Assembly: GCF_003363715.1 (NCBI RefSeq)
Contig: NZ_QREV01000005.1
Location: 1 to 64,000 of the forward strand
Source: Parabacteroides acidifaciens
GTDB lineage: Bacteria > Bacteroidota > Bacteroidia > Bacteroidales > Tannerellaceae
Direction of reading: 5' to 3'
Length of the DNA stretch: 64,000 nucleotides
Shown: positions 6,077 to 52,296 of the stretch, in pieces
How the letters are laid out: every line of letters starts with the position of its first letter
How positions within the stretch are numbered: position 1 is the first letter of the stretch
Translations under genes and position numbers: made by a program
The notes under the pieces: generated by a model
Databases searched by the model: none
Told to the model about the DNA's origin: nothing
What the model saw: only the letters and a program-made list of their open reading frames with translations

Positions 6077-6083
6077 ACAAACT

Positions 6084-6180
6084 TGTCCCCGCGCTTGACG
6101 CGGGGCCGCAAGAGAACAGGCCTTATCGATAATTTGATTATACGGTCGGTTCTGATGCGATCCCGCGTCAAGCGCGGGAA
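6084..6180. repeat. 97-bp palindromic element, copy A (intergenic)
   Basis: The element starts TGTCCCCGCGCTTGACGCGG and ends GATCCCGCGTCAAGCGCGGG + AA. The two ends are inverted copies, each itself partly palindromic. Right-flank sequence CAGTTTGACACATCC continues the symmetry beyond the core. It fills the space between convergent genes (GH20 ends 6076, FAD oxidoreductase ends 6203), where it can fold in transcripts from either side. Other copies lie at 27244-27340 and 35968-36064, all exactly 97 bp from TGTCCCC to GGGAA. Confidence 0.9.
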
Positions 6181-6202
6181 CCGGGCAGTTTGACACATCC
6201 TC

Positions 6203-27175: not shown

Positions 27176-28033
27176 GTGAAATATTTCGTTTGCATTTTAC
27201 TGTTCTTATTTCAGTTCACAATAGAAAAGGCAGCCGCTGTCTCTGTCCCCGCGCTTGACGCGGGGCCGCAAGATGAGCGGCTTTATCAATTAAAGCCCGA
27301 TACGGCAGGCTTTGATGCGATCCCGCGTCAGGCGCGGGAACAGGTTGCGGCTTCCGATACGCTTCGGGAGCGCATGCCGGTTGTGCCGTATAAGTTCAAT
27401 CCGAAAAGCCTGATTCTTCCGGCATCCCTGATTACAGTCGGAGCTGTCGGCACGGCGATAGACGGGATGAACGATTTCCATCTTTTCTCGCGCAAAGATT
27501 CCGTGAAGCAAATCCGCATAGATGATTATATGGAATGGGGAATGTTAGGTTGGGTGTTTGTTTGCGACCTGATGGGGAAGGAGAAGCACAATTGGGTGGA
27601 CCAGCTTTGCCTGGTTGTCATCGCCGAAGGATTTAATGCAGCCATGACGCGAACAGTTAAATATGCGGTCAACGAAATCCGTCCCGATGGCGGTCCGCAT
27701 TCTTTTCCCTCCGGGCATACAGCAAATGTCTTTTTAGGTGCGCACGTCGCCTGGAAGGAGTTTAAGGACAGCAGTCCGGTGCTGGCCTATTCAGGTTATG
27801 GCTTGGCCACGCTTGTCGCCTGTTCCCGCCTGTATAACAACCGTCACTGGGTGGCGGATGTGGTGGCCGGAGCCGGTTTCGGCATCCTTTCCGTCGAGCT
27901 TGCCTATCTGACCTATTTCCCGATTCGTAATGCGATTGCCCGCCGGATTAACCTGAAAGCCAGCGACCGCCTGGTTATAGCCCCGACGCTGTCTCCCGAA
28001 GGCGGCGGGCTTTATCTCTCCTGGAAGTTTTAG
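27176..28033 (+). CDS. Exported PAP2-family phosphatase carrying a translated repeat element
   Basis: A membrane-associated type 2 phosphatidic acid phosphatase family protein. All three family motifs are present: KYAVNEIRP, then PSGHTANVFLGA, then SRLYNNRHWVADVVAG. The family removes phosphate from lipid or other phosphomonoesters outside the cytoplasm. I place the start at the GTG at 27176, which opens a signal peptide (VKYFVCILLFLFQFTIEKAA); an in-frame ATG at 27113 would put charged residues ahead of it. A 97-bp palindromic element (27244-27340) directly follows the signal and is read through as VPALDAG...AIPRQARE. It is encoded after phnW and may share its transcript. The exact substrate is unknown. 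Confidence 0.85.
   Translation: MKYFVCILLFLFQFTIEKAAAVSVPALDAGPQDERLYQLKPDTAGFDAIPRQAREQVAASDTLRERMPVVPYKFNPKSLILPASLITVGAVGTAIDGMNDFHLFSRKDSVKQIRIDDYMEWGMLGWVFVCDLMGKEKHNWVDQLCLVVIAEGFNAAMTRTVKYAVNEIRPDGGPHSFPSGHTANVFLGAHVAWKEFKDSSPVLAYSGYGLATLVACSRLYNNRHWVADVVAGAGFGILSVELAYLTYFPIRNAIARRINLKASDRLVIAPTLSPEGGGLYLSWKF
27244..27340. repeat. 97-bp palindromic element, copy B (inside the PAP2 gene)
   Basis: It shares its first 30 bases (TGTCCCC to CGCAAGA) with copy A and its last ~25 bases (TGATGCGATCCCGCGTCA to GGGAA) with one change in the right stem. The middle has diverged, but the length is still exactly 97. The outer flanks of copies A and C are missing. It is translated between the signal peptide and the phosphatase domain and contains no stop in that frame. 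Confidence 0.9.
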
Positions 28034-34829: not shown

Positions 34830-34938
34830 TCAATTACGACCGTCCAAATCGCCATTACGACCGTGCTAATCTTTGCGAGGTGCCGAGTGCACTACACATT
34901 AGCACGGTCGTAATGGCAAAGAAGACGGTCGTAATTGA
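34830..34938. repeat. Large two-tier inverted repeat built from ATTACGACCGT units
   Basis: The left arm (34830-34870) and right arm (34898-34938) pair almost completely, with an internal mismatch of about 7 bases and a ~27-base loop. Each arm has two copies of ATTACGACCGT, so the motif occurs four times, two in each direction. The inner paired segment, CCATTACGACCGTGCTAAT with its complement, is a perfect 19 bp. Confidence 0.85.
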
Positions 34939-35872: not shown

Positions 35873-35967
35873 TCATTGATACAACTTGCTTTGGTTTTGA
35901 AACAAAACTATATATTTAATCCTGATAATCACTGTTTTAAAAACAATGGGGTGTATCAAAAGTCCTT

Positions 35968-36064
35968 TGTCCCCGCGCTTGACGCGGGGTCGCAATAGAA
36001 CAGGCCTTGTCAATCAGTTGTTTATACGGTCGGTTTTAATGCGATCCCGCGTCAAGCGCGGGAA
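35968..36064. repeat. 97-bp palindromic element, copy C (intergenic)
   Basis: The copy with the best-preserved surroundings. Beyond the 97-bp core the symmetry continues: GGGTGTATCAAAA on the left (from about 35949) mirrors TTTTGACACATTCCC on the right (to about 36087), giving a near-palindrome of roughly 140 bp. It lies between the convergent barrel gene (ends 35872) and TonB-receptor gene (ends 36095). Confidence 0.9.
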
Positions 36065-36094
36065 CAGGGCAGTTTTGACACATTCCCATTTGGT

Positions 36095-46495: not shown

Positions 46496-46531
46496 ATTAT
46501 TACCTCCTTGTTGTCAATTTTTTTGGTTTTC

Positions 46532-46643
46532 GGGTACATGACAAACTGATCATGTGCCTGTTTTTAACTTTTCGGGTACATGATCGGTTTCTCATGTACC
46601 TGTTTTTAGTTTTTCGGGTACATGAGAAACCGATCATGTACCC
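46532..46643. repeat. Array of three GGGTACATGA / TCATGTACC palindromes, 42-bp period
   Basis: Units at 46532-46558, 46574-46600 and 46616-46643, each with arms GGGTACATGA and TCATGT(A/G)CC, separated by TGTTTTTA..TTTTTC. The loop regions of units 2 and 3 (GATCGGTTTCTC and GAGAAACCGATC) are reverse complements, so the two units can also pair with each other. The array lies between the Fic gene stop and the ExoX-C-like gene start. Confidence 0.9.
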
Positions 46644-52040: not shown

Positions 52041-52129
52041 CGTTTTATACTTGCTTATAATTTGAATGACTTAGGAGTAAATTAGCATAGACCCTTATCT
52101 TTGTTTGAATGGAGTCCCATCCAATCCTT

Positions 52130-52213
52130 GTTCGACCCGGGTCGAACGGTTGTTTGACCTCCGTCGAACAGCTGTCCCACCCTCGTCGAACAGCTGTCCG
52201 ACCCGGGTCGGAC
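52130..52213. repeat. Array of four 18-bp palindromes, 22-bp period
   Basis: Units start at 52130, 52152, 52174 and 52196. The outer two are perfect palindromes (GTTCGACCCGGGTCGAAC and GTCCGACCCGGGTCGGAC); the inner two are imperfect. Spacers are 4 bases, AGCT twice. CCTT and AAGG flank the array symmetrically. It lies between the GLPGLI gene and the barrel gene, both on the minus strand. Confidence 0.92.
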
Positions 52214-52296
52214 AAGGTTTTTGCGGGAGCCGGATGGAAATGGGATGGGAGCTGAGGAAAAATAGAAGGGAGCTGAGGGAAACTAAGTCCCTTGTG

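Follow-up and report, generated by a model that had tools for sequence, protein, structure and literature searches.

We have identified a dispersed palindromic repeat that lies in frame within a PAP2 phosphatase gene of Parabacteroides acidifaciens. The genome carries about 50 copies of this ~99-bp palindrome. The copy at positions 27244-27342 of the window (the whole 64-kb stretch of DNA that was analysed) most likely lengthens the PAP2 protein, which is presumably expressed, by 33 amino acids. Very probably, the insert derives from a mobile palindrome that is non-autonomous and specific to this lineage, with two REP-like hairpins arranged head to head, one copy of which landed in frame in PAP2. 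The gene and the parts of the element (copy B) are as follows.

27176..28033, + strand: PAP2 phosphatase gene, from a putative GTG start through the stop codon (ORF and Pfam PF01569)
27176..27241, + strand: PAP2 signal-peptide region, codons 1-22 (hydrophobic N-terminus, by eye)
27244..27342, + strand: palindromic element copy B, 99 nt = 33 residues (repeat search, alignment and fold)
27248..27264, + strand: left REP-like hairpin unit CCCGCG-CTTGA-CGCGGG (pattern match, 0 mismatches)
27272..27315, + strand: diverged copy B spacer between both hairpin units (18 of 44 positions unlike the intergenic consensus)
27322..27338, - strand: right REP-like hairpin unit, inverted, loop CCTGA (pattern match, 0 mismatches)

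Copy B runs from TGTCCCC (27244) to GGAACA (27342), and its 33 codons in the PAP2 frame read VPALDAGPQDERLYQLKPDTAGFDAIPRQAREQ with no stop. A first-pass annotation of this DNA had correctly described the element as in frame and stop-free, although its length of 97 bp, or about 32 residues, was slightly short. The same annotation had placed the insert behind the signal peptide of a PAP2 phosphatase, which agrees with the Pfam assignment (PF01569, E = 8.1e-16) and with the intact motifs K-x6-RP, PSGH and SR-x5-H-x3-D, which we take to be those of the PAP2 family. The GTG start is also present in three sister genomes (G013, G014 and G021). An AlphaFold2 model built from 24 sequences has a mean pLDDT of only 59 and is poor as a whole. 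Residues 19-63, with pLDDT values below 50, are rendered mostly as coil apart from a helix called at 51-59; in this numbering the insert occupies residues 24-56.

The element folds strongly (z = -7.4; 0 of 200 shuffles folded equally well). Compared with a hand-typed intergenic consensus, copy B has 2 changes in the 57 stem positions and 18 in the 44 middle positions, in line with the near-identical end stems and diverged middle reported at first pass. The corresponding counts are 1 of 57 and 7 of 44 for copy A, and 1 of 57 and 2 of 44 for copy C, the two intergenic copies of the window. By codon, 12 of 33 differ in copy B, and nine of these are replacements. The copy B spacer changes fast and, taken alone, gives no sign of constraint.

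The PAP2 protein has some match in 52 of the 59 genomes searched. N-termini were read for 23 orthologues found elsewhere in the genus (L033-L055, 61-91% identity); none contains the insert residues, nor does one partial orthologue (L100). A six-frame search of 49 PAP2 loci (L033-L055, L100 and L275-L299, partly from the same genomes) for VPA[LP]DAG and PRQARE found neither string anywhere. For ten named loci (L288-L297), seven sequences were shown, all without the insert, and two were identical to regions already seen. An alignment of 23 of 25 named PAP2 loci says little on the insert because most of its rows begin near residue 50. The first refuting condition set at first pass, orthologues carrying the same residues, did not come true.

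Codons 2-18 of PAP2, compared between P. acidifaciens and each of the three sisters over only about 11 silent sites, gave pS values of 0.62-0.75 and pN values of 0.18-0.21. This pattern shows purifying selection on the signal-peptide codons upstream of the insert, so translation starts upstream of it; the second refuting condition, a start downstream of the element, did not come true either. A start at the methionine that follows the insert (RMPVV; frequent, though not universal, there in orthologues), which would leave the element as a hairpin in an untranslated leader, is very improbable given this constraint and the start codons that several relatives have about as far away.

The window holds three copies of the repeat (6083-6191, 27243-27351 and 35967-36075), with fold z-scores of -7.4 to -10.2 relative to shuffled sequence. 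Two are intergenic, and copy A sits between two convergent genes.

6083..6183, + strand: intergenic copy A core; outer complementary arms reach to about 6067 and 6200, set by eye
35967..36067, + strand: intergenic copy C core; outer arms 35952-36082

A full copy consists of two inverted CCCGCG-CTTGA-CGCGGG hairpin units flanking a spacer of ~50 nt, and many intergenic copies have further complementary arms outside this core. In some of them, for example L017, L022 and L092, arms are followed by T-runs and look like bidirectional terminators. Solitary single-hairpin versions occur in G014 and G021, and a short single-hairpin relative, TTGTCCCCGCGTCAAACGTGGGAA, lies directly upstream of the PAP2 gene in G021 (L035, reverse strand). 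The window also contains other palindromic features: at 46519-46642, a 42-nt unit that occurs three times in tandem and has an inverted repeat each time (GGTACATGA...TCATGTACC), and large inverted repeats at 34830-34938 (41-nt arms, 88% complementary) and 52123-52220 (49-nt arms, 76% complementary).

Allowing up to one mismatch, the P. acidifaciens genome has 46 forward and 50 reverse matches to the 17-mer stem unit, compared with 0 for the reversed control; with these counts and folding beyond that of shuffles, the repeat is not a product of chance. In G014, the stem unit occurs 34 times forward and 21 times reverse. The search of the P. acidifaciens genome (5.10 Mb, 144 contigs) returned 79 repeat hits, most copies being matched on both strands because they are palindromic. 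From these, 51 places were listed by hand, several of which are half copies or single hairpins; two are cut off by the end of a contig and may together make up one copy, and the list omits one weak copy (L018, near base 101). The first-pass annotation had proposed counting the repeat across the genome, and the count came to about 50 copies, with 41 of the 51 listed places outside genes and 10 inside ORFs with known domains. The ends of contigs C133 and C52 (L097, L098) both stop mid-element after the same 20-nt flank, and the assembly may have broken inside one copy there.

DNA matches were found in five of the 59 genomes searched, all of the same genus and including P. acidifaciens itself, and there was no match in the 24 genomes of other genera. 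At gathering scores, an Rfam scan of the window matched nothing. Two of the six frames of the intergenic consensus, both on the same strand, are free of stops. Both neighbours were called at 30 of the 41 non-gene places, where a hand count gave 11 convergent, 18 tandem and 1 divergent pairs. These become 10, 19 and 1 when L158 (C81) is corrected; there, the gene calls missed a PGA_cap gene that has a half copy at its 5' end, with a possible ATG ATG start inside or adjoining that half copy. Clean empty sites were sought for copies A and C and none was found, the relatives differing there by other changes. A tree of the copies had support too low to tell whether those in genes form one subfamily.

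A frame scan placed copies within ORFs at ten places, each with a Pfam domain, representing PAP2 and about nine other genes.

In-frame copy: PAP2
In-frame copy: glutamate synthase large subunit
In-frame half copy: M1 peptidase
In-frame copy: M56 peptidase
In-frame copy: RND-ABC ORF, with ACR_tran and ABC_tran domains
In-frame copies: two OMP-barrel proteins, L094 and L154
In-frame copy: FGE-sulfatase/HZS-alpha protein
In-frame copy: HU-like protein
In-frame copy: TatD-family protein

That all ten are in frame is partly built in, since they were chosen for an open frame spanning them. Broken genes were sought at the 41 other places by simple codon-score gene calls, which small or odd genes could escape, and none was found. 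Seven of the ten copies are read in the VPALDAG frame; p is 0.02 if one in three is expected but 0.17 against the two open frames, and because of the latter value no frame bias is claimed. Three of six gene spacers (PAP2, glutamate synthase and RND-ABC) are clearly more hydrophilic than the consensus spacer, and the other three are about equal or less so. The RND-ABC gene (L152, L220-L222, L227) is one long ORF that fuses an RND-type (ACR_tran) segment to an ABC ATPase, with orthologous ORFs in four relatives. Sixty repeat loci of the relatives were examined (12 in G013, 39 in G014, 6 in G021 and 3 in G019). Coding-like ORFs of at least 150 codons span copies at TatD of G014, at two G013 ORFs (363 and 168 aa) and, weakly or partially, at three G019 loci; of these, TatD alone was compared with orthologues.

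The gene inserts range from species-specific to common to several species. On a five-genome tree (3942 aligned positions from seven proteins), P. acidifaciens (G000) stands beside ((G013, G021), G014), with G019 outside, and among these genomes the PAP2 and glutamate synthase inserts occur in P. acidifaciens only; the glutamate synthase insert is absent from all four relatives compared. The TatD insert is common to G014, shorter in G021, further reduced in G013 and absent from G019. The RND-ABC insert is common to G013 and absent from G021 and G019, with a short, different stretch in G014. The insert of the L154 OMP-barrel protein is partly common to G014 and G021, the sole two orthologues compared. 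In the M1, M56, FGE-sulfatase, HU-like and L094 proteins, the linker is too variable for a clean insertion to show.

The shared inserts remain open and in frame. Their pN/pS ratios are 0.34 for RND-ABC, 0.65 (against G014) and 0.49 (against G021) for the L154 OMP-barrel protein, and 0.74 (against G014) and 0.85 (against G021, poorly aligned) for TatD, compared with 0.10-0.29 for the remainder of these three genes. Single ratios are weak, but pooling RND-ABC against G013 with the L154 protein and TatD against G014 gave 42 silent changes over 95 sites and 71 replacements over 283 (Fisher p = 7e-4). Given this deficit of replacement changes, the old inserts are under weak protein-level constraint.

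We infer that the repeat family is mobile. It would spread by copying, with an enzyme supplied from elsewhere; gene-breaking copies would be lost by selection, and copies in genes would persist wherever the linker that they add, read in one of the two stop-free frames and probably flexible, is tolerated. The spacer of a landed copy would then change and shrink in frame, with the hairpin arms staying similar.

A different origin, which we think unlikely, is that the repeat is a MITE, with the outer complementary arms (about GGGGATGTGTCAAAA) serving as the terminal inverted repeats of a lost insertion sequence. The recurrence of these arms in many intergenic copies agrees with a MITE, as does a strict search for coreless arms, of the kind expected of host terminators: paired arms 6-36 bases apart, too close for a full core, gave 0 matches in five genomes under an exact pattern and limited spacing. 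However, the arms vary between copies yet pair within each copy, as terminators do. Copy B has no arms and the other gene copies have at most partial ones (by eye), and neither an insertion sequence nor a target duplication was identified. Less probable still is an old family, now immobile, that was spread and homogenised by recombination or gene conversion, the PAP2 insert being a conversion product. Such a history would suit the nearly identical hairpin arms with differing spacers, but the PAP2 and glutamate synthase inserts are confined to the P. acidifaciens lineage among orthologues without them.

REPINs mobilised by RAYTs consist of two inverted REP units with a spacer, bear a GTAG tag and have a cognate Y1 gene. 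That the repeat is a REPIN, with a RAYT-type Y1 transposase moving both hairpins together as single-stranded DNA, is suggested by its inverted hairpin doublet around a spacer and by the solitary single hairpins of G014 and G021, but this origin is not supported and seems decidedly improbable. No mobilising enzyme was found among the Y1 transposase genes examined: there are no Y1 matches in G013 or in G014, despite the abundant stem units of the latter, four in G021 (three with an internal stop) and one in G019. With up to two mismatches allowed, the stem unit occurs within about 1.5 kb of 0 of 6 Y1 loci in P. acidifaciens, G021 and G019. The sole Y1 transposase of P. acidifaciens (L031, C61:12211-15546) is found among different repeats, many of CCCTGTAAGGGCG and GCCCAGGGTGTAAACCCTGGG type, and is perhaps a RAYT with its own REPs. 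The repeat also lacks the GTAG tag of REPIN-type REPs (PMC3733652).

A lineage-specific mobile palindrome, as we propose, resembles several described repeats. Its likeness to the Rickettsia palindromic elements (RPEs), put forward at first pass, holds for behaviour: it is a strongly folding palindrome present in frame in several genes across the genome, with a PAP2 insert absent from orthologues. According to PMC2229807 and PMC10969869, RPEs are likewise palindromic, measure about 100-150 bp and occur both between genes and, in frame, within unrelated genes, but are reported in reading frames unusually often, whereas about four in five copies here lie outside genes. The host also differs, being Parabacteroides, and the likeness is judged by behaviour and not by RPE sequence. 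In anatomy the repeat is nearer the CGTC-type REP dimer, a group to which RPE-4 and RPE-6 are assigned in PMC3733652. As described there, CGTC REPs have no transposase, form head-to-head dimers, lie mostly at gene ends and include Bacteroidetes among their host phyla.

Judged by these published rules, the CGTC-type REP dimer is the closest described kind by anatomy, with the stem and tail departing from the rules. The repeat shares inverted dimers with a spacer, positions at gene 3' ends and intragenic units with the CGTC REPs (PMC3733652), together with a 5-nt loop (CTTGA; the rule is 4-5 nt) and the lack of an associated transposase, Y1 genes alone having been checked here. For the tag, where the rule is an unpaired CGTC, TGTC or CCTC at one end, the left unit has TGTC and the right unit mostly TGTT or CGTT. 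The stem is about 7 bp (7 in PAP2) instead of 8-9, there are no A-T pairs at the first two stem positions (one T-A pair at most in the right unit), and the tail is CCGCA or TCGCA instead of a short one, mostly CCA. The repeat is best called a REP-dimer family behaving like RPEs.

ERIC, Correia and YPAL elements are also small repeats fused in frame to genes, according to PMC2229807, but belong to other hosts, and the repeat here has no proven terminal repeats or target duplication. The 188-bp PINSR repeat of Prevotella intermedia is likewise lineage-specific, high-copy and from the Bacteroidales, but PMC4755523 reports that it lies between genes, lacks terminal inverted repeats and probably does not code for protein. 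In-frame palindromes are described from Rickettsia and, as REP units, from several other bacteria (PMC3733652, PMC2229807 and PMC10969869). No report of them in Parabacteroides or Bacteroides was found in a literature represented mainly by titles and abstracts, with few subscription journals covered.

The PAP2 genes of G013, G014 and G021 (L105, L118 and L110) have a match to a second palindrome, GGCGGTTNGNGAACCGCC, at the same boundary and in frame, with 0, 1 and 1 mismatches, respectively. This motif is dispersed, occurring 20 times forward and 21 times reverse in P. acidifaciens, 15 and 14 times in G019 and 2-3 times each way in the three sisters, with 0 matches in G007 and G030; the reversed control gave 0 in all seven genomes. 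Of 22 sites in P. acidifaciens, 21 were read, 20 without a coding-like ORF across them and one with a weak ORF call. G013 and G014 have in common an ORF with a further copy close to its end, and there are three other weak ORF calls. The PAP2 linkers folded with z-scores, from 60 plain shuffles, of -5.8 in P. acidifaciens (a longer stretch), -5.7 in G021, -2.4 in G013 and -1.7 in G014. Linker folding fails as proof of the second palindrome, as these values overlap with those of L052, L295 and L291 (-3.1, -2.5 and -2.3), which have no known repeat; the case is made by the match to a dispersed motif, not by folding.

On the five-genome tree, the two palindromes may reflect either two captures at nearly the same codon or the replacement of one by the other. 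Replacement would agree with the length of the PAP2 linker from TI to RM, which is 20 residues in P. acidifaciens once the insert is subtracted but 30, 30 and 35 among the three sisters. It is a real possibility, if short of probable, that the PAP2 signal-peptide boundary is a recurrent landing site for unrelated palindromes, the REP-dimer here and a GGGGCGGTTCGCGAACCGCCCC-type palindrome in G013, G014 and G021, each in frame. If so, such boundaries would attract or favour palindromes, and mobile hairpins would repeatedly supply new linker peptides.

Rickettsia, an obligately intracellular bacterium whose genome is reduced, is the best-known source of protein-coding palindromes. A family whose in-frame copies are variously recent, old and shrinking, in gut bacteria that live freely and have genomes of 4-5 Mb, would make it testable how mobile DNA becomes protein, and the use of one site twice in sister lineages opens to direct test whether such sites are permissive or attractive.
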